Virus record (IMG/VR): IMGVR_UViG_3300042868_003806
Span: 1 to 37,284 of that record
Source of the DNA: a virus
Direction: 5' to 3' (one strand)
DNA: 37,284 nucleotides
Part shown: positions 5,013 to 33,977 of the stretch, piece by piece
How the letters are laid out: the number at the start of each line of letters is the position of its first letter
How positions within the stretch are numbered: the first letter of the stretch is position 1
Translations under genes and position numbers: made by a program
The notes under the pieces: generated by a model
The model's input: only the letters and a program-made list of their open reading frames with translations
Databases searched by the model: none
What the model was told of the DNA's origin: nothing

Positions 5013-6431
5013 TTACCCAGTTGCTACTGCGGCTGGAAGCTTGTCGGACAATGCCTTAATTGCTTCTAGTAGAGATTTTTGCATATCTGCCCCACCCCCA
5101 CCTTTTGCTTTTTCTGCGGCAACTTGACTTGCGGGTGCTCCACCTTGCATCGCCCCAAGTTTTTCAGACAGAAGGGGCATTTCACCTGCGGCTTGTTGTG
5201 CGGCCACCCTTTCCCGCATATTCTGGGCTGTTAATGGCGGCAATCCTTGTGCCTTCCTCTTAACATTTTCCTCTTTTTTCATCTTTTCAAACACTTCATC
5301 TTGCGTTCTAAAATCTTCTTTATTCACCTCTCTAGCCCTTACTTTCCTTGCTGTATCAAGGGCTTGTTGCCCAGCCCTGCTTGCACCCAATAGTCCACCG
5401 CCAGCTTCTCGTGCTTGCTCGGGTCTTTTTTTCTCCTCGGCTCTGCTTCTGTATAAGTTCCTTAATAATCTGTCGAAGTCTCTTTTGTCTTTAGCTTCTT
5501 CGAGACGGCTTGTTTCGTCTATGTTATACATTTCCTCTCGCAAAATACTATTTGTATTTGATATTCTTCGTTCTGTAATTTCTTGTTCTGATTTTCTTCT
5601 TCTTTCATCAGAAGCTTTTTGGAGCTTCTCTTCTGCATCAAAAACCATTTTTCTAAATTTTATATCCGATTCAGCCCGATCTTTTGCAATCTTGTCTAAT
5701 ATGGCGTTTCTTTTTCTTGCCATTACCTCTCCACTTGCCTCTTGAAATTGTTTGCTTGCTTGTGGGTCTTGGATGGTCTGACCCAATTTTTGTCTTTTAA
5801 CATACTCGTTATTTACATCCTGCAACGCCCTTGCCTCTGCATCTAGACCATCTACTGTTTCTTCATATAAATTCTGGCTAATAATCCCTTCAGCAAGCTT
5901 TAGGTCTCGCAACTTTTGATTTGTTTTTAATAGTGCATCAAGCTCTGTTTTTGCCCCAGTTGCACCAGCAATAAACTTCTGAAAAGAATTTCTTTCTAGT
6001 TCTTGAATTTTGTTATTAAGAGATTCAATGTTTGCATCAATCCCAGAAACTTGTGATAGTGCCTCGGATAGGTTCATTGCCCTTCCAGCCTTTTCTATTT
6101 CGTTAAATGCCTTTTGCGACACGGTGGCTGTCTCTCTCAACATTTCTCCCATTCTTGTGATTTGATCTGTAAAGACCTTAATCCCTCCAACTGCAACCGC
6201 ACCAACTAGAGACCTTCCAACAATACTTCCTAGGCTTTCTGCGGCAGAGGCGGCCACATCGCTTGCATCTCTAGCTTGTGAAAGGCTACTGCTAAAACTC
6301 CTAAATGCTTGACCAGCCTTTTGACCAGAAACCTTTAGCTTTTCAATGGCCTTGGTTGTACCAGCCATCGCCTTGTCTACTCCGCTATTGTCCCCACGGA
6401 CTCGGAGCATTAGCTCTTGTGCGTCTGCCAT
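5013..6431 (-). CDS. Tail tape measure protein (472 aa)
   Basis: The protein is almost entirely helical, with long charged heptad-like segments (about residues 120-390, rich in K/E/R/Q/A). A hydrophobic, glycine-rich segment near residues 65-95 (AAESLGSIVGRSLVGAVAVGGIKVF) is typical of tape measure proteins. The opening (MADAQELMLRVRGDNSGVDKAMAGTTKAIEKL) resembles the start of many siphophage tape measures. Using the usual 0.15 nm per residue, 472 residues would give a tail of about 70 nm, which is short. It follows the tail chaperone (7231-7814) with one gene in between and precedes the distal tail genes. Start ATG at 6431, two bases after the upstream stop. Confidence 0.82.
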   Translation of the reverse strand: MADAQELMLRVRGDNSGVDKAMAGTTKAIEKLKVSGQKAGQAFRSFSSSLSQARDASDVAASAAESLGSIVGRSLVGAVAVGGIKVFTDQITRMGEMLRETATVSQKAFNEIEKAGRAMNLSEALSQVSGIDANIESLNNKIQELERNSFQKFIAGATGAKTELDALLKTNQKLRDLKLAEGIISQNLYEETVDGLDAEARALQDVNNEYVKRQKLGQTIQDPQASKQFQEASGEVMARKRNAILDKIAKDRAESDIKFRKMVFDAEEKLQKASDERRRKSEQEITERRISNTNSILREEMYNIDETSRLEEAKDKRDFDRLLRNLYRSRAEEKKRPEQAREAGGGLLGASRAGQQALDTARKVRAREVNKEDFRTQDEVFEKMKKEENVKRKAQGLPPLTAQNMRERVAAQQAAGEMPLLSEKLGAMQGGAPASQVAAEKAKGGGGADMQKSLLEAIKALSDKLPAAVATG

Positions 6432-6432
6432 A

Positions 6433-7221
6433 TTATAACTTCAGCTTGTCACTTGCCTCTTTGTTCTTACGAGCAAGATAGACATTCATATCTTTCATTA
6501 CCTTTTCAATAGCCATTTTTAAGCCCGGCATACCAACCTTAACCGCACCAGATACAGCCCTTTTCCTTACTGGATAATATCTTGTATCTTTATCGCCAGC
6601 CCGATTGAAAATAATCCCCTCCATCTGTGCTTGTTTTTCATCTGCTTTAGTACCACCACCAAGCCTCATTATCGCTTCTTTGCTGTAATCGCCACGAGTT
6701 AGATTAGCCCTTTTACCAAAAACAGAAGCCGCCGCCGCCCATCCGTTACGAATATAATTAATAGATCGCTTTCTGCCAGCCACAAGCCTCCTAGCCAATG
6801 CTCCAATCGTTCCGGGCTTTGTCCCCATCCCAAGACCACCGACTCCAAGCTTTGTCTTTCCTAATGTGGGAAGCCCTCTGTTTTTCAAAAGCCAATTTAC
6901 AAGCTTATATGTTCCAACATAGGAAACCGATTGAGCCTTATATCCAACTGCATATTCCCCAATCTTACGCTTCTTAACCTTACCAGATTTTGTCAGACCA
7001 AATGGCTTAAACACCTTCTTTGTAATAACCTTTCCCTCAACTCTTTGTAGTTCTGATGCAATTTGAGCCGCATTGGTTCTATATGTTGTGCCGATGGCCG
7101 TTACTGCGACATCTCCCAATTTATCATTAATGACTTGAGCCATATTCTTTCTTGAGGCTTTTTGATATTCTTGAAGTTTATGGACAAACCTTGCTTGGTT
7201 CAACAACTCTATGGTTATCAT
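6433..7221 (-). CDS. Basic tail-module protein (262 aa), unknown function
   Basis: This Lys/Arg-rich protein has helical ends and a central glycine-rich section (about residues 120-150, LGKTKLGVGGLGMGTKPGTIGALARRL). It sits between the frameshifted tail chaperone and the tape measure, a slot where lambda has no extra gene. It could be a tail-completion or head-tail component, but I do not recognise the family. Its ATG lies inside an 8-bp inverted repeat (7220-7227 with 7246-7253), so initiation may depend on ribosomes finishing the -1 frame that ends at 7231. Confidence 0.65.
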   Translation of the reverse strand: MITIELLNQARFVHKLQEYQKASRKNMAQVINDKLGDVAVTAIGTTYRTNAAQIASELQRVEGKVITKKVFKPFGLTKSGKVKKRKIGEYAVGYKAQSVSYVGTYKLVNWLLKNRGLPTLGKTKLGVGGLGMGTKPGTIGALARRLVAGRKRSINYIRNGWAAAASVFGKRANLTRGDYSKEAIMRLGGGTKADEKQAQMEGIIFNRAGDKDTRYYPVRKRAVSGAVKVGMPGLKMAIEKVMKDMNVYLARKNKEASDKLKL

Positions 7222-7253
7222 ATTCTTAATCTATTTTTTTTCGTCAAGAATAT
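7220..7253 (-). promoter_or_regulatory. Inverted repeat covering the start of the 262-residue gene
   Basis: ATATTCTT (7220-7227) and AAGAATAT (7246-7253) form a perfect 8-bp stem around an 18-base loop. In the minus-strand mRNA this would fold the start codon at 7221 into a stem whose other arm lies in the last codons of the frameshift extension. Only ribosomes in the -1 frame reach the extension, so translation of it could open the stem. This is an inference from base pairing only. Confidence 0.4.
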
Positions 7254-7814
7254 CATCAATTATATTTACTGCGTTAGAATTGTGCCTTCTGACATCAATT
7301 CCTCGATTGACAAGCATAGCGTGTTCTAGCTGAACAAGTTGCACCTCTGCCATCTCCCACAATACTTGCTCTGCTGTCCACCCAAACTCCTTTGCAAATA
7401 GCCAGACGGACGAAGCAATCCCGGCTGGCTGAACTATTTTGGGGAGTCGTTCCCCCCATTAGTCTGCACACGAGCCTCTGCAATTTCAGAGAAGATTTCG
7501 TCTACAATTTTAACTCCTTCAATAAAATCAGCCTCATTAAACTCGTCAGACCAATTTAGAACCGCCTCCCTAAACTTGGCCTTGTCCCAAGCCAATTTCA
7601 CTAGCTCCGATCTTGGGTGGGTTAGGCAGTATAGGCTCGACCAAATAAAGAACTCTGTAGTATCCGCCTCCTCACGAATTTGGTTCATAACAATTCGTGT
7701 GCCAAGGGTGAACTTCCCAACCCTACTTCCCTTAAACATTCTTTCGTTTATGACAAAGGATTTGTCGAGTGCCTTGTTTAGAATCTCCTCATCTTTTTGT
7801 AGGTCTAGGTTCAT
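7231..7814 (-). CDS. Tail assembly chaperone, -1 frameshift fusion (about 194 aa)
   Basis: This is a lambda G/GT-type arrangement. The 126-residue zero-frame product ends CCA AAA TAG, and the slippery heptamer C-CCA-AAA sits immediately before the stop. Moving one base back continues as IVQPAGIASSVWLFAKEFGW... for 68 codons to TAG at 7231. That extension has protein-like composition. It has no usable start codon between its previous in-frame stop (TAA just upstream) and the slip site, so it can only be reached by frameshifting or by poor internal starts. A stable hairpin starts six bases after the slippery site. In this family both the short and long forms bind the tape measure during tail assembly; here the tape measure is two genes downstream. 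Confidence 0.85.
7400..7444 (-). promoter_or_regulatory. Programmed -1 frameshift signal (slippery site plus hairpin)
   Basis: On the minus strand, CCCCAAAA (7444-7437) is followed by TAG (7436-7434), then TTC, then a hairpin at 7430-7400. The outer stem AGCCAG/CTGGCT has six perfect pairs. It continues through a C-T mismatch to CGG/CCG and an A-T pair with one bulged G, closing an 8-base loop. A heptamer X-XXY-YYZ, a six-base spacer and a stem-loop is the canonical bacterial and phage frameshift layout. Confidence 0.8.
7434..7814 (-). CDS. Tail assembly chaperone, short (G-like) product (126 aa)
   Basis: This is the zero-frame product that results when ribosomes do not slip. It is acidic and mostly helical (MNLDLQKDEEILNKALDKSF...), with a conserved-looking middle (FFIWSSLYCLTHPRSELVKLAWD). 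Start ATG at 7814 overlaps the 3' end of the 128-residue gene (stop at 7811, ATGA). Its length is close to lambda gpG (140 aa). Function as a tape-measure chaperone is inferred from gene order and the frameshift architecture. Confidence 0.8.
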   Translation of the reverse strand: MNLDLQKDEEILNKALDKSFVINERMFKGSRVGKFTLGTRIVMNQIREEADTTEFFIWSSLYCLTHPRSELVKLAWDKAKFREAVLNWSDEFNEADFIEGVKIVDEIFSEIAEARVQTNGGNDSPK

Positions 7815-8216: not shown

Positions 8217-8573
8217 CTAACTTATACCATCGTATCGAACTGCCGTGAAGGACACCGTCTCAAAGTTATCTGCACTACGGTTTCTAGCGGTTTCAGTAAT
8301 ATAGGCCGCACCAGATAGATCGTAGTTGCTTCCGTTGGACACAATAATAACCGCCCCAACGCTACCGCTAAAAGATGTATATGCACCTTCAACGGAGTAG
8401 GTAACTTTCTTGTTGCGGAACATAACCGCCGTAACATCGCCACTCTTGTTCTTTAGCTCAACAGCATCAGCAGAGGCAGAGGAAGAGATGGACTGAATTA
8501 CCATTCCAGCTTGGTCAGAGCCAATTCCAAAGGCCAGATTTCCCGACCCATTTCCGATAATTGTGGCGGCCAT
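8217..8573 (-). CDS. Tail tube-like protein, second paralogue (118 aa)
   Basis: It aligns by eye with the neighbouring 119-residue protein at 8575-8934. Shared features are G-x-VIQS-S/F-S near residue 25, an acidic/charged loop with S/G-D/E-x-x-AV-x-F near residues 45-52, K-x-x-x-S-x-x-G, and a C-terminal F-x-A-x-x-Y-D/T-G-I/L-S. Small, beta-rich and cysteine-free, it lies just upstream of the chaperone and tape-measure genes, where siphophages encode the tail tube. The duplication suggests two tube or tube-like subunits, or a tube plus a decoration protein. Start ATG at 8573. Confidence 0.65.
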   Translation of the reverse strand: MAATIIGNGSGNLAFGIGSDQAGMVIQSISSSASADAVELKNKSGDVTAVMFRNKKVTYSVEGAYTSFSGSVGAVIIVSNGSNYDLSGAAYITETARNRSADNFETVSFTAVRYDGIS

Positions 8574-8574
8574 A

Positions 8575-8934
8575 TTAGGTGGAGCTTAACCCCGTGTAAG
8601 CTGTTGCGGACAAATCAAAGCTGTTGAAGCCATCGGCGGCTTGTGAGAAAGAAACATCTGTTACAAAGTAAGTCCCGCTAGATACTGCGGTTGTGTTGCC
8701 AGTTAGGGCAAGAGTCCCTCCAATTCCAGAGGATGCAACAGCACCGCTACAATTACCAGAAAGACTAACATTTCTTTTGAAAGCAGAAAAAGCAACGGCA
8801 GAATGCTCTCCGTTGTGCTTGGAAACTTCGGTTGTCTCGGCTGTGCTTGTAAGAGAAAAGCTCTGGATAACAACGCCAGTCTCGGCGGCTAATCCAAAAG
8901 CAACCCCAGTAAGTCCTATACTTGTAGCGGGCAT
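8575..8934 (-). CDS. Tail tube-like protein, first paralogue (119 aa)
   Basis: Beta-rich, Thr/Ser/Ala-rich protein (MPATSIGLTGVAFGLAAETGVVIQ...) paralogous to the downstream 118-residue protein. A clear ribosome site AAAGGAA lies about seven bases before ATG at 8934, stronger than for its paralogue, which hints at higher expression. A tail-tube role is inferred from size, fold character and position. An alternative is a decoration or tail-completion protein. Confidence 0.65.
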   Translation of the reverse strand: MPATSIGLTGVAFGLAAETGVVIQSFSLTSTAETTEVSKHNGEHSAVAFSAFKRNVSLSGNCSGAVASSGIGGTLALTGNTTAVSSGTYFVTDVSFSQAADGFNSFDLSATAYTGLSST

Positions 8935-15199: not shown

Positions 15200-15441
15200 T
15201 TCACCATTTCCGCTAATGCTTTTTTAATTGCGTACTCAATCACGGCTTCTGGGTCGTGCTTTAATGCCAGCATTCCAGCCTCATACAATTCCTTCCCCGC
15301 CTTCCCATCATAGGTAATATCGACTAGGACATACCTTGTTTTGTCTGTGCGAGATTTCCCAAAAGTAATTATACCAAGCCCCCCAGTATTCTCTCCCTTT
15401 TTAGCTTTTCTACACCCAATTATTTGCTTTGCGTTTTTCAT
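15187..15441 (-). CDS. Small basic protein (84 aa), unknown function, in the sugar cassette
   Basis: This protein is lysine-rich (MKNAKQIIGCRKAKKGENTGG...), with a beta-strand middle (RYVLVDITYDGKAGKEL) and a helical C-terminus (AVIEYAIKKALAEMVKCKK). It overlaps both neighbours, so it is co-translated with the glycosyltransferases. No family recognised. It may be an accessory or target-binding subunit, but nothing in the sequence shows this. Confidence 0.6.
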   Translation of the reverse strand: MKNAKQIIGCRKAKKGENTGGLGIITFGKSRTDKTRYVLVDITYDGKAGKELYEAGMLALKHDPEAVIEYAIKKALAEMVKCKK

Positions 15442-17065
15442 AGATCGCTTTCCCTTTCTCGTAGTATTCTGGTTTGTTGTGGTTCTTTAGTTGTTCGTCT
15501 GGGTTGCCCCCTGCAAACATAGGGTTCTCGTGCCTAAACACCAAGTCCCTAGCTTCAATTATGCAATCATCGGCATAAGCTCTTTCTGTGAACTCGTTAT
15601 CGGAGTATATGCCGTCCGAATCTTGATAGCTTGGGTGGAACATATAACCCCCTTGCTTGCGTAGCCTCTTTTGCGTTAGGATAGCCATACAGAGCAGTTT
15701 GTCGGTTCGGAGGCCATCTGATACTGCCAGCACCCTTTCGGCCTCTAGGTTGTCGATCTTGCTCAAAATTAGGGCATCCCAGTATCTCGGTGGACTCCAA
15801 TCATCGCTCATTTGAATAATAACATCCCCCTTGGCTATTTTTGCCCCTTCGTTCCAAGCGTTCACAATCCCCCCCGGATTAACTCGCTTCCCATCGTGCG
15901 GGGTATAATCAACCGCTTCATCGTGGTCAACCATAAACAACCACTCAATCGCTAGGGGTTCTTTTGCTAAAGCCAGCCATTGCATCTTTCTTGAGAAAGC
16001 TATGTGAGGTCTGCCCCTTGTGGCGTGAACCACGCTGATCTTTGGCTTAGGATACATATTTGCCAGCTTTTGTGCCTCCTCCTTTTGGCCGTAGCAAACC
16101 GAGGCCATCCGGTATCCATCGAGGGCTTGCCAGTCATAAATTGCGTGAACTTGATTCCAGTAGTGAAGGTTGGGTTTGGGCATCGCCATACAAGCCCGAC
16201 CAGCGTGCCAAGCCTTCGGCCAATCCCCTCGTGCCGAGTATTCTGCCATCAAATAAAAGTAAGCCTCTCTGCGGATAGGATTCACCGCAATCGCTTCCCC
16301 CAGATATCTCATTCTTTTTTCTGTGGGGGAACATCTGCCTAGATTGCAAAGCAGTTCATATTTTAGGGTTTCGTCTAGGTCTGGGAATACTAACGCCCTC
16401 TCACCAACCTCCACCGCCTTGTCCACTTGTCCCCTCAAGAAAAACTCTTGGTGTTGGTAGTAAAGGTTGAAGGGGGTGGAGAGAAGCTCATCGGCTAGGA
16501 TGCGATGATTGCGGTCTGCGGAATCTGCCTTGCTAGTGATCGGCCTATGGATTCGGAAGATTTTATCTATGGCAAGGAGCTTGTTCTTGTCGTTTGGCTC
16601 AAGGGCTTCGTGAACTCTGTTCCTCCACCTCCCGCACCCCTTCCTCAAGGCCATCTCCCTAATAGGATTCAGCCCAGCATTTTCTACCAGATATCGAAAG
16701 CAAACAATTTCAGCCCCTACTTTTTCTGCTTGTTCTAGCCCCTCCTCCAAAACCTTCTCCCCATCCTCTGCCATTACATCATCAGCATCTACCCAGATAG
16801 ACCACTCGTTCTTACAAGCATCGAGGGCTGTATTTCTAGCAGTTGCAAAATCGTCTATGTGAGGCCAGTCAGTTTTCTTATTCTTGTAATGAATGACTTT
16901 AGCCCCAAGCGAAAGGGCGATCTCCTCTGTCTTGTCTGGCGTAGCTGACCCCCCAGCCATACAAACAATAATTTCCTCTGCGATGGGCTTAAACGATTCA
17001 ATGACTCGCTTAATGTGGGCTTCTTCATTTCCAGCGATTAGGTAAAGGGATACAGGGATTTTCAT
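15410..17065 (-). CDS. Two-domain glycosyltransferase (GT2-like, 551 aa)
   Basis: The first GT-A domain spans about residues 1-200, with the nucleotide-sugar start (VSLYLIAGNEEAHIKRVIESF) and the metal motif WVDADD at 91-96. A helical, TPR-like linker covers about 200-335 (repeated R-x-A-x-x-Y/L patterns). A second transferase-like domain begins at 341 (PKISVVHATRGRP) with VDHDEAVD near 379-386 and IIQMSDDW further on. Such double-GT proteins with TPR linkers can glycosylate proteins or build surface glycans. It is the first gene after the strong terminator at 17101-17137, so the cassette probably has its own promoter or is reached by readthrough. Confidence 0.75.
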   Translation of the reverse strand: MKIPVSLYLIAGNEEAHIKRVIESFKPIAEEIIVCMAGGSATPDKTEEIALSLGAKVIHYKNKKTDWPHIDDFATARNTALDACKNEWSIWVDADDVMAEDGEKVLEEGLEQAEKVGAEIVCFRYLVENAGLNPIREMALRKGCGRWRNRVHEALEPNDKNKLLAIDKIFRIHRPITSKADSADRNHRILADELLSTPFNLYYQHQEFFLRGQVDKAVEVGERALVFPDLDETLKYELLCNLGRCSPTEKRMRYLGEAIAVNPIRREAYFYLMAEYSARGDWPKAWHAGRACMAMPKPNLHYWNQVHAIYDWQALDGYRMASVCYGQKEEAQKLANMYPKPKISVVHATRGRPHIAFSRKMQWLALAKEPLAIEWLFMVDHDEAVDYTPHDGKRVNPGGIVNAWNEGAKIAKGDVIIQMSDDWSPPRYWDALILSKIDNLEAERVLAVSDGLRTDKLLCMAILTQKRLRKQGGYMFHPSYQDSDGIYSDNEFTERAYADDCIIEARDLVFRHENPMFAGGNPDEQLKNHNKPEYYEKGKAIYEKRKANNWV

Positions 17066-26338: not shown

Positions 26339-26629
26339 TTATGCGTAAGCCTCGGCCAACTCCTCGGCCTCGGCCTCTGCGGGTGGTTCTATCTCTCGAA
26401 ATCTATGCTGGGCAAAGCCTCGCTCCGGGTGGGGTGGGGTGGTGCTTAATGGGTTGTTGATGCCCTCCAAATAGACCACCACTTCCCCTGCCTCTCCGTT
26501 CAATGCTACCCCTATGCCAATGCCCCTTATTGTGTACTGTCTATCCTTGACTGGTAGGGCATTGTAAAAGGCTAGGATGTCGGGTGGGAATCTGTCGTCC
26601 ACGCACACTACTTTTGACCCAGTTGTCAC
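26339..26629 (-). CDS. Unknown small protein (96 aa)
   Basis: Start taken as GTG at 26629, which overlaps the upstream stop (GTGA) and has GAGGG ahead of it; a longer frame begins with ATG at 26689. The product has a compact core (VVCVDDRFPPDILAFYNALPVKDRQYTIRGIGIGVALNGEAGEVVVYLEGI) and an acidic, Ala/Glu-rich tail (EAEAEELAEAYA). The end has an unusual proline stretch (TTPPHPERG). No family recognised. Confidence 0.6.
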   Translation of the reverse strand: MTTGSKVVCVDDRFPPDILAFYNALPVKDRQYTIRGIGIGVALNGEAGEVVVYLEGINNPLSTTPPHPERGFAQHRFREIEPPAEAEAEELAEAYA

Positions 26630-27162
26630 CGTTTTTTCCCTCGCTTTTTTATGCCTTTTTCCCACGCTTCCTTGTTCCATTTTGGGCATTCCTCCCGCCT
26701 CTTTTTGTGGACTCTCAAGGCTCGTTCCTTGTAAATCTGCCTCACCCTTTCGCTCCTTTGGATGCGTAAAACTAGCCCAGTGCGTTGGCTCAATTCCGTA
26801 AGGCGAGCCGATATGGCCGCTCGTGTGTATGGCTTTCCAGTTGAGGGGTTGATGTAACGCTTTGCGATTGAGGTTAGGCTGTCTGGGCTTCGGTTGCTGG
26901 CTAGGGCTAGTAGTGCCTCATCCAAGGTATCGTCCCGCCTATGCCTCAACATTTGGGAATCGCCTTCGTGCTTGATCGTCTGCTCCACCACCTCTGCCGT
27001 GAGTTTGGCTAATTGGTCTAGATCGATGGCTGGGTTCATCGCCTTCATTTTGGCGAGCCTTTCCTTGACCCGATCTTCTAGGGTGTCGATGTGGTCGGCC
27101 ATATTGGGCGTATAGCTTGCCAAGATTGAGTCGGCTGGGTCTTGGCCTTGGTGGTGGTTCAT
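26626..27162 (-). CDS. HTH DNA-binding protein (178 aa)
   Basis: The N-terminal half is helical (DTLEDRVKERLAKMKAMNPAIDLDQLAKLTAEVVEQT). Near residues 95-130 is a helix-turn-helix-like unit that reads SLTSIAKRYINPSTGKPYTRAAISARLTELS, like sigma-factor region-4 or replication/terminase HTH domains. The end is very basic (KKRREECPKW...KKRGKKR). The start overlaps the upstream 3D-domain gene by ATGA. A transcription or replication regulator is plausible; the target is unknown. Confidence 0.6.
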   Translation of the reverse strand: MNHHQGQDPADSILASYTPNMADHIDTLEDRVKERLAKMKAMNPAIDLDQLAKLTAEVVEQTIKHEGDSQMLRHRRDDTLDEALLALASNRSPDSLTSIAKRYINPSTGKPYTRAAISARLTELSQRTGLVLRIQRSERVRQIYKERALRVHKKRREECPKWNKEAWEKGIKKRGKKR

Positions 27163-27713
27163 TGGATTTCTACTAACGCTGTCCGTCCCACCCTTGCCAA
27201 TTCCCGCCTTGCTTGCCGTTCTGTGGCATAGAAAAGATCAACAACTGGGAGCTTGGTCTTGCCCGATGCCTTCCGTGAGATTACTGCCGTCCCGGTGTCG
27301 TGAGCGTGGTATGCCTTGCCCTCGATCAATAGGGTCGTTCCGTAGGGGATGATTTTGGGGTCTACTGCACAAGATTTGCCAGAAACCAACCGTTTTCCAG
27401 TAGAGCTTTTCCACCCAAACTCGTCCTCCCCCAACCAATACGCCGTGATGCGAGCCTTGATGGTTTTCTTGGCTGGTGGCTTTGGGGTTTGAATCATTAT
27501 GTTCGCCGCTTGGCTTGAGCATAAGAGCGTGATGGCTAGGATTATGATGGCTTTTTTCATAGTTAAGAAGTGGAGACGCTCGCACAAATGGCGGTAGCGT
27601 CTGGATGGGGATTCGTCTCCCTTGGTTCTTTTGCCTTCTGCCGTGTCAATCGGGGTCTTGAGCTTGTCGATCTGTGCCTCGATTGCCTTTGCCTCCATCT
27701 TGTTAATCTTCAC
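27159..27713 (-). CDS. 3D-domain (RlpA-like) protein with internal signal-anchor (184 aa)
   Basis: The C-terminal domain (about residues 85-180) has the 3D/double-psi barrel pattern: TAYWLGEDEFGWKSSTGKRL, VDPKIIPYGTTLLIEG, HAHDTGTAV and VDLFYAT. These carry the conserved Asp residues of peptidoglycan-active 3D proteins. A hydrophobic signal-like segment (MKKAIIILAITLLCSSQA) begins at residue 52, not at the start. GTG at 27713 has a perfect GGAGGT five bases upstream, which supports the long form. An internal start at 27560 would give a normal exported protein. It probably targets the cell wall during lysis or entry. Confidence 0.7.
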   Translation of the reverse strand: MKINKMEAKAIEAQIDKLKTPIDTAEGKRTKGDESPSRRYRHLCERLHFLTMKKAIIILAITLLCSSQAANIMIQTPKPPAKKTIKARITAYWLGEDEFGWKSSTGKRLVSGKSCAVDPKIIPYGTTLLIEGKAYHAHDTGTAVISRKASGKTKLPVVDLFYATERQARRELARVGRTALVEIQ

Positions 27714-28011: not shown

Positions 28012-29139
28012 TTACTTTGAGTCTTGATTGATGCAAGGTGTGGTTTTGGGTTGTTCATCTTCAACATATTCAGCACCCCTCCTCATACACTCCAATCTAT
28101 CCGCCTCTGTTATCTTGCCCCTATTAAAAATATCTCTTCCAGCCTCTCCTATCGGCATAAATATAGCACCGGTATAGCTTTCCCCATATACCTTTGTTAT
28201 GTTTTGATCTTTTGTTGGAGTTCTAAATACTGCCTCATAGGGCTTTTTATATGATTGGTCTACTATGACTGGCACGGTGTTTATCCATTTGATTGAATGA
28301 TGTATTCTTGGGTTGCTTGAATTAAGGATGGCAACTTTTACGCCCGATGGGTGCATCATAACTGTGGTAAAACTTTTACAATAAGTGCCATACTTCAAAT
28401 AGACCTCCGTCATACCACTCTTTGTTTTCTGCGTTGGTGTCTGCCGAAGGCTTATCATTGGAATGGTGGCAAACAGTTTACCCCTGCTTCCCAATGTTAC
28501 ATAGGTATTAACATCGTCATTAAACTGCCCAACAAATCTGAATGGTCTATCTGTTGAGCAGAAAAAGGAGTTCATACATTTCCTTAAAAGCCTCTTGATG
28601 GTTGCGTTGGCATTTTCTATTCCCCCAATATAATCCCCGTTCTGTGCTAGGGCTATGCTTGTAAATGCTGATGACTTAAAAAACTCTAGGTGAAGCTCAA
28701 ACACCTTATCCAAATTATCTATATCAATGCCCATTAGTTTTTGACCATCAGAACTTGGGTATCTATACTCAAAGTTTTCATAGTCATCTTCCAGCAATAT
28801 AAAATACTTAACGCCAAGGCTTTCTGCTATTTTGAAGCTGGCATTTCTTGCGTGAACTGTAGCCCTTCTGTCGTCAAAATTATTGCCCTCATCTATTGTG
28901 TCTGCTATTTCTTTTTTATTAAAAACAATAACATTGTCCTTACCATATAGCTGAACATATTGTTCTGCTGTTTTGTCCTCATTATCAATTATGAAATAGG
29001 TTTTGCCAGTATATCCAGCCTTTTTAAGCGCATTTACTGTGACTACTTTTTGTGGTCTGCCGTGAGTTAAAATAAAGACCACAAATTCTTTATTTTCTTC
29101 AACTGTCTTGCTCAATATATTGCTCCTTAATCTTTTCAC
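28012..29139 (-). CDS. TET-associated-type (TAGT) DNA glycosyltransferase candidate (375 aa)
   Basis: The first 130 residues show a GT-A nucleotide-sugar fold: VVFILTHGRPQKVVTVNALKKAGY (21-43), YFIIDNEDKTAEQY (48-61) and a metal motif FILLEDDYENFEY (113-125). This ordered pattern (LTHGRP, DNEDKT, EDDY) is the one I associate with the TAGT family, described by comparative genomics as transferring sugar to hydroxymethylated bases in phage DNA. The gene is 41 bases inside the 3' end of its neighbour. GTG at 29139 starts the long frame; TTG at 29115 with AAGGAGC ahead of it is an alternative. No TET/JBP oxygenase or cytosine methylase was seen in the window. Confidence 0.7.
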   Translation of the reverse strand: MKRLRSNILSKTVEENKEFVVFILTHGRPQKVVTVNALKKAGYTGKTYFIIDNEDKTAEQYVQLYGKDNVIVFNKKEIADTIDEGNNFDDRRATVHARNASFKIAESLGVKYFILLEDDYENFEYRYPSSDGQKLMGIDIDNLDKVFELHLEFFKSSAFTSIALAQNGDYIGGIENANATIKRLLRKCMNSFFCSTDRPFRFVGQFNDDVNTYVTLGSRGKLFATIPMISLRQTPTQKTKSGMTEVYLKYGTYCKSFTTVMMHPSGVKVAILNSSNPRIHHSIKWINTVPVIVDQSYKKPYEAVFRTPTKDQNITKVYGESYTGAIFMPIGEAGRDIFNRGKITEADRLECMRRGAEYVEDEQPKTTPCINQDSK

Positions 29140-33195: not shown

Positions 33196-33435
33196 CTAGT
33201 TACGCCCCACCCAGTTCTTTGTGGGCAAGACCAGCTCTGGCTGTTTAGGCTGGTTGCCCTCGGCCACAATCTTGTCCATCTTTTCTAGCTCGGCGGCCAC
33301 ATACAAATAGAACTGCCGTCTTTCGTAGTTCTGCTGGTCGATGTGTTTGGCAAAGAGCCTCACCCCTTGCAGAATCAAAAGCCCAAAGAATGCAACTAGG
33401 AAAATAATCACCAGCGAATCCTCTGTTTCTGCCAA
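33196..33435 (-). CDS. Membrane protein with one N-terminal helix (79 aa)
   Basis: Residues 9-28 (VIIFLVAFFGLLILQGVRLF) form one membrane helix. A basic and acidic cytoplasmic or periplasmic tail follows (YERRQFYLYVAAELEKMDKIVAEGNQPKQPELVLPT). It overlaps the ligase gene by 28 bases. Unknown function; a small inner-membrane protein of a phage early operon. Confidence 0.65.
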   Translation of the reverse strand: MAETEDSLVIIFLVAFFGLLILQGVRLFAKHIDQQNYERRQFYLYVAAELEKMDKIVAEGNQPKQPELVLPTKNWVGRN

Positions 33436-33977
33436 GCGGGTGAGCAGTAGTTTGGGTTGGTAATGAATGGATACTTGCCGTCATCCATAGCCTTCATAAC
33501 AAAGCCCTCCCAGATTACTTCCCCCGCCTTGTTATTCTGATAGTTCATCTCTTCCCAGATTGCATTGATGTTGTGGTGGGCAAGGCGAACAAAACGAAGG
33601 AGCTTATTCTGTGGCACATCGAAGGTCACGGCTTCGAGGTGTTCGATATCCTTCATCCTCTCGGCGTAAGGCTTGGGGTTGGCGGGGTCGAATGCGTCCA
33701 TAACTACTATCGTTCCCTTGCCAGTCTTTGTGCGTTGCCCCATAATTTCGCAATCAATGTAGGGGGCTTTGATACCAGCATTGGCGAGACGCTCTACCAT
33801 TAGATTATGGTTGGATGCGATCTTTCCGTGGCGGTTGTATCCGATGCCAGTCTTTTGATTAAACAAGCCCCGCCATCCGTTCAGCTTTCCCTCAATGGAG
33901 AACCCATCGGAAAACTCCTCGTGGCTAGCTGGCACGGCTGAACCTACTGGCCTTGCTGGGAGGGGGAAGGATGTCAT
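33408..33977 (-). CDS. Minimal ATP-dependent DNA/RNA ligase-like protein (189 aa)
   Basis: Motif I is SIEGKLNGWRG, with Lys31 the likely adenylated residue; the usual Asp after K-x is replaced by Asn33. Motif III-like YIDCEIMG (73-80), then VVMDAFD (91-97), motif IV WEGFVMK (156-162) and motif V WQKQR (182-186) follow in order. It has only the nucleotidyltransferase domain; there is no OB-fold, which most DNA ligases have. It could be a DNA nick-sealer or an RNA ligase. Start ATG at 33977, after a noncoding stretch. Confidence 0.75.
   Translation of the reverse strand: MTSFPLPARPVGSAVPASHEEFSDGFSIEGKLNGWRGLFNQKTGIGYNRHGKIASNHNLMVERLANAGIKAPYIDCEIMGQRTKTGKGTIVVMDAFDPANPKPYAERMKDIEHLEAVTFDVPQNKLLRFVRLAHHNINAIWEEMNYQNNKAGEVIWEGFVMKAMDDGKYPFITNPNYCSPAWQKQRIRW

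Follow-up and report, generated by a model that had tools for sequence, protein, structure and literature searches.

A programmed −1 ribosomal frameshift very probably operates at the end of a short gene of this virus, a tailed virus of bacteria, and would there produce a G-T-like fusion protein of the kind that serves lambda as a tail-assembly chaperone. The window, that is, the whole stretch of DNA analysed, comprises 37,284 bases of a virus record from IMG/VR, and the long open reading frames (ORFs) in it lie nearly all on the minus strand. The mechanism is already known, and the gene family that appears to use it here is new and unannotated. The zero-frame gene reads GAC TCC CCA AAA TAG at its 3' end, and the elements of the site are the following:

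7434-7814, minus strand: zero-frame gene (126 aa), whose product is predicted to be a gpG-like tail assembly chaperone.
7437-7443, minus strand: slippery heptamer C_CCA_AAA (CCA-AAA to CCC-AAA).
7434-7436, minus strand: TAG that ends the zero frame, adjoining the heptamer on its 3' side.
7231-7436, minus strand: extension in the −1 frame, made up of 68 post-slip codons and a stop; predicted gpT-like C-terminal domain.
7400-7430, minus strand: predicted 3' stimulatory hairpin of 6 + 4 bp with a 9-nt loop and a 6-nt spacer.
7452-7457, minus strand: G-rich Shine-Dalgarno (SD)-like stretch 8 nt 5' of the heptamer, candidate 5' stimulator.

The preliminary description had a zero frame ending in CCA AAA TAG with CCCAAAA right before the stop, which is what is seen at 7443-7434, and a hairpin six bases further on, which is found at 7430-7400 behind the 6-nt spacer. 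Its −1 extension of 68 codons ending at 7231 was borne out as well: the first codon starts at 7437 by re-reading the last base of the heptamer, the stop occupies 7233-7231, and the predicted 0/−1 fusion is 194 aa long and includes NGGNDSPKIVQPAGIASSVWLFAK across the slip site. A stop closes the −1 frame a short distance 5' of the slip site. The extension was also said to lack a start codon near the slip site and to be missed by ORF callers; indeed, no start-type codon occurs in it before a TTG roughly 27 codons from its beginning, and the ORF listing recovers only the 43-aa piece that begins there, not the full extension.

The arrangement of the site exceeds chance. The called genes of the window hold 39 in-frame X_XXY_YYZ heptamers, four of which (in three genes) are followed by a −1 extension that runs well past the stop, and only the one at 7437-7443 among these four stands directly before the stop. 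Elsewhere in the window, the gene at 26626-27162 (minus strand) overlaps that at 26339-26689 (minus strand) by 64 nt and carries in-frame CCCAAAA and AAAAAAG near its end, with a 94-aa −1 extension; the downstream gene has an ATG of its own, and the pair is probably an ordinary gene overlap. The gene at 33408-33977 (minus strand) has an in-frame CCCAAAC 13 codons before its stop and a 69-aa −1 extension past the stop that overlaps the next ORF. Both of these genes have the appearance of simply overlapping the ORF that follows.

In the mechanism that we propose, most ribosomes would stop at the TAG and yield the 126-aa G-like protein. A fraction would pause at the hairpin while CCA occupies the P site and AAA the A site; the paused ribosomes would then move back by a single base, re-pair with CCC and AAA, and translate a further 68 codons, which gives the 194-aa G-T-like fusion. 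By analogy with lambda, the short form may bind the tape measure protein and the extension may recruit tail-tube subunits. That the shift occurs we infer with high confidence from its evolutionary record; any rate of slippage and the chaperone role are putative.

This record rests on relatives found in two rounds of searching, the first with the extension as query and the second with a profile of it, which gave 76 IMG/VR contigs, 75 of them with a complete site. The preliminary description had pointed to conservation in relatives as the check on its reading, and in all 75 contigs an X_XXY_YYZ heptamer of canonical form is present in the required phase and is followed by a homologous −1 extension that stays open and measures 67-73 codons from the heptamer onwards. 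Twenty-four contigs are close relatives at 79-99% identity, and every one of them has CCCCAAAATAG together with an open extension. The contigs fall into two main lineages whose proteins differ by up to about 70%, identity going down to about 28%. CCCAAAA is the heptamer of 31 contigs, and the sister lineage has GGGAAAC (42 contigs), GGGAAAT (one) and CCCAAAC (one). The zero-frame stop follows the heptamer directly or, in some relatives, one codon later (+3), and the position of the heptamer is constant. Replacement of the heptamer together with displacement of the stop by a codon is what selection for a −1 shift predicts. The exchange of slip sites between lineages is thus independent evidence that selection keeps the −1 shift and not a particular sequence. 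C_CCA_AAG is highly shift-prone in E. coli, and the haloarchaeal virus HCTV-1 uses G_GGA_AAC (PMC5009743). The gene of HCTV-1 is of the same type and shares its G_GGA_AAC with the sister lineage, a likeness drawn from its description rather than from sequence; the window itself differs in having C_CCA_AAA.

The same comparison bears on two other ways of expressing the extension. It could be a separate gene, reached by re-initiation after the zero-frame stop or from an internal start of its own, as stop-proximal re-initiation is common in phages and the TTG about 27 codons in would yield a 43-aa product. However, strong conservation precedes this TTG (the PAGIAS..VWLFAKEFGW part), and 31 of the 76 sites have no start codon between the upstream stop and 25 codons into the extension; at the remaining sites its position varies, and no internal start codon is conserved across the 76. 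Since a separate gene would also leave unexplained both the invariant X_XXY_YYZ heptamer and its swap for other slippery heptamers, we regard this alternative as very improbable. Slippage of the transcribing polymerase rather than of the ribosome is suggested by the site CCCCAAAA, which consists of two short homopolymer runs. Runs of four bases are short for transcriptional slippage, however, and relatives exchange them for GGGAAAC yet keep the heptamer in codon phase and a hairpin 6-7 nt away from it; this route, too, is very improbable.

The extension evolves as a protein only in the −1 frame, in which it is under purifying selection. Among the 22 distinct sequences of the window's lineage, the extension has a pN/pS of 0.216 when read in the −1 frame versus 1.06 in frame 0 and 3.7 in +1, and among ten distinct sequences of the sister lineage it is 0.252 in the −1 frame versus 1.3 and 1.5 in the other frames; the zero-frame gene stands at 0.126 across 22 distinct relatives. 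Synonymous divergence in the window's lineage falls about ten-fold, from roughly 0.6 in the zero-frame gene to 0.06 at the slip site and hairpin, and is back to roughly 0.6 near the end of the extension. The main sister lineage has a shallower dip in the same place. A second, weaker dip (0.22-0.26) spans codons 26-44 of the extension (about 7362-7305) in the window's lineage and is absent from the sister lineage; recombination or another RNA element are candidate causes.

The hairpin of the window has a predicted energy of −13.9 kcal/mol, and when the 40-nt stretch is shuffled with its dinucleotides preserved, two of 200 versions fold equally well. Across distinct relatives in the window's lineage, 95% of the alignment cells are paired, with no two-sided changes in this alignment, and its stability is only mildly unusual against synonymous recodings (P about 0.12). 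The sister lineage carries a longer, 16-bp equivalent in the same place, with 94% of cells paired. There, 33 cells show two-sided (compensatory) changes versus 11.8 in shuffles, and none of 500 shuffles reaches 33, in a control that leaves relatedness in. Shifting the pairing partner by 1-3 columns lowers the pairing from 94% to 34-48%, and this hairpin is stabler than synonymous recodings in all seven members tested (P 0.01 or less). Heptamer and hairpin are 6-7 nt apart across relatives, and many studied −1 sites have spacers of 5-9 nt (PMC5009743). Judging from this spacing, the suppression of synonymous change and the covariation in the sister lineage, a 3' RNA structure lies within 5-9 nt of the heptamer and is under selection at the RNA level.

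The SD-like stretch invites comparison with E. coli dnaX, where a heptamer and a 3' stem-loop are joined by an SD element; some bacteria are reported to have the dnaX arrangement in reverse, the slip site being followed at once by the stop (PMC5009743). The dnaX gene and its purpose are different, and the SD element is here only a candidate. It is GGGGGG in the window and GGAGG in most close relatives, and in each of the 22 distinct sequences from the window's lineage GGAGG or GGGGG stands about 8 nt 5' of the heptamer. The predicted duplex with the anti-SD has an energy of −9.3 kcal/mol in the window and of −9.3 to −10.8 kcal/mol in its lineage, which places it among the strongest few percent of the gene's 8-mers. 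It is possible that this stretch acts as a 5' stimulator, and the window's lineage may have a dnaX-like cassette of three parts with an internal SD-like element. However, the stretch encodes a conserved Gly-Gly and is explicable by a Gly-Gly linker; it is also lineage-specific, being absent in the main sister lineage and weak or absent across most of the sister lineage, and SD enrichment upstream of gene starts in the window is not significant (p 0.11). An inverse relation between SD and hairpin strength, strong in the raw data (rho −0.87, 66 sequences), is gone under independent contrasts (r 0.03), and the claim of a trade-off was dropped.

Why the frameshifted gene should encode a tail-assembly chaperone in particular is a matter of its position and mechanism, from which the function is assigned because no sequence or fold similarity to gpG or gpT is detectable. 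The landmarks of the tail module and of the genes upstream are as follows:

24110-22248, minus strand: gpA-type terminase.
22031-19629, minus strand: portal protein.
18130-17165, minus strand: major capsid protein.
8575-8934 and 8217-8573, minus strand: two tail-tube-like genes of about 119 aa, so called by position and size.
6433-7221, minus strand: 262-aa gene between the −1 extension and the tape-measure-like gene, with a similar-sized gene there in both lineages.
5013-6431, minus strand: short tape-measure-like protein of 472 aa, so called by position and N-terminal features only.

The order in the module is two tube-like genes of about 119 aa, a 128-aa gene, the 126-aa gene, the 262-aa gene and the 472-aa tape-measure-like gene. 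Order and sizes fit a place between tail tube and tape measure in both lineages, with neither neighbour confirmed by profile and one extra gene intervening. The match of one tube-like gene to DUF7299 is sub-threshold, the tape-measure-like protein has no Pfam or PHROG match of note, and the chaperone region of the module has no convincing match in either collection. The gene before the tape-measure-like gene and the N-terminus of the tape measure itself come in two clearly different types among relatives (L057-L061 versus L060, L070, L073-L078), which suggests module exchange. Other genes of the window encode a TET-associated glycosyltransferase (Pfam TAGT, E 3e-32; 28012-29139, minus strand) and a second glycosyltransferase (phrog_13126, E 1e-25; 15410-17065, minus strand), two enzymes that may be a sign of DNA in which cytosine is hypermodified, and a 3D-domain protein (E 3e-7; 27159-27713, minus strand) that is probably a cell-wall lytic enzyme.

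Homology searches return little for the two halves. Modelled by AlphaFold as separate chains, the 126-aa protein (mean pLDDT 81) and the extension (pLDDT 74) are both mostly helical. Neither half shows homology to lambda G or T by hhalign, a fold match in the PDB by Foldseek or similarity to a known chaperone in Pfam, PHROG or PDB profiles. The best match among viral models, and the only good one, is an uncharacterised phage protein (E 1.5e-4). Of 19 extension sequences, 10 weakly match phrog_11996, a family of unknown function; the best E value, 0.0016, falls short of a convincing level. Only insignificant matches to either half or to the tape-measure-like protein turned up in 50,697 phage records, and scans of bacterial genomes found no relatives.

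The absence of homology to known chaperones, together with the absence of tail genes annotated by profile search, is what speaks for a genuine −1 fusion in a protein other than a tail-assembly chaperone. Yet in both lineages the gene follows the tail-tube-like genes and shortly precedes the tape-measure-like gene, both parts have fitting sizes, and terminase, portal and capsid genes stand upstream in the usual order, which makes a different function unlikely. A tail-assembly chaperone is also the reading that agrees with what is known of such genes, as long-tailed phages widely retain G-T frameshifting even where their sequences have little in common (PMC5009743). As with lambda gpG/gpGT, a short zero-frame protein is paired with its −1 extension, an X_XXY_YYZ heptamer stands at the end of the zero frame (PMC5009743), and the order and sizes of the neighbouring genes fit a place between tail-tube and tape-measure genes. 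The differences from lambda are that no sequence similarity is detectable, that the extension is half as long (68 residues versus about 140), that the stop directly follows the slip site with a hairpin at 6-nt spacing, and that an extra 262-aa gene precedes the tape-measure-like gene. Of the lambda G/GT mechanism that the preliminary description had recognised, the arrangement, conservation and RNA constraint stand, the gene order fits, and homology to gpG and gpT in sequence or fold is undetectable.

A broader reading, which we put forward with reservation, is that in this uncultured phage family evolution has altered the slip heptamer (CCCAAAA, CCCAAAC, GGGAAAC, GGGAAAT) as well as the stimulators of the tail-chaperone frameshift while its output has stayed the same, an SD-like element with a moderate hairpin perhaps doing in one lineage what a long hairpin does alone in the other. 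If true, the members of the family would form a naturally occurring series in which to follow how a frameshift ratio is kept up. Pfam, PHROGs and the PDB contain nothing that matches the family convincingly. Its recognition corrects the gene calls of at least 76 virus records in which an ORF caller would miss the extension, and its slip sites and hairpins are naturally occurring variants on which the setting of the frameshift level could be measured.
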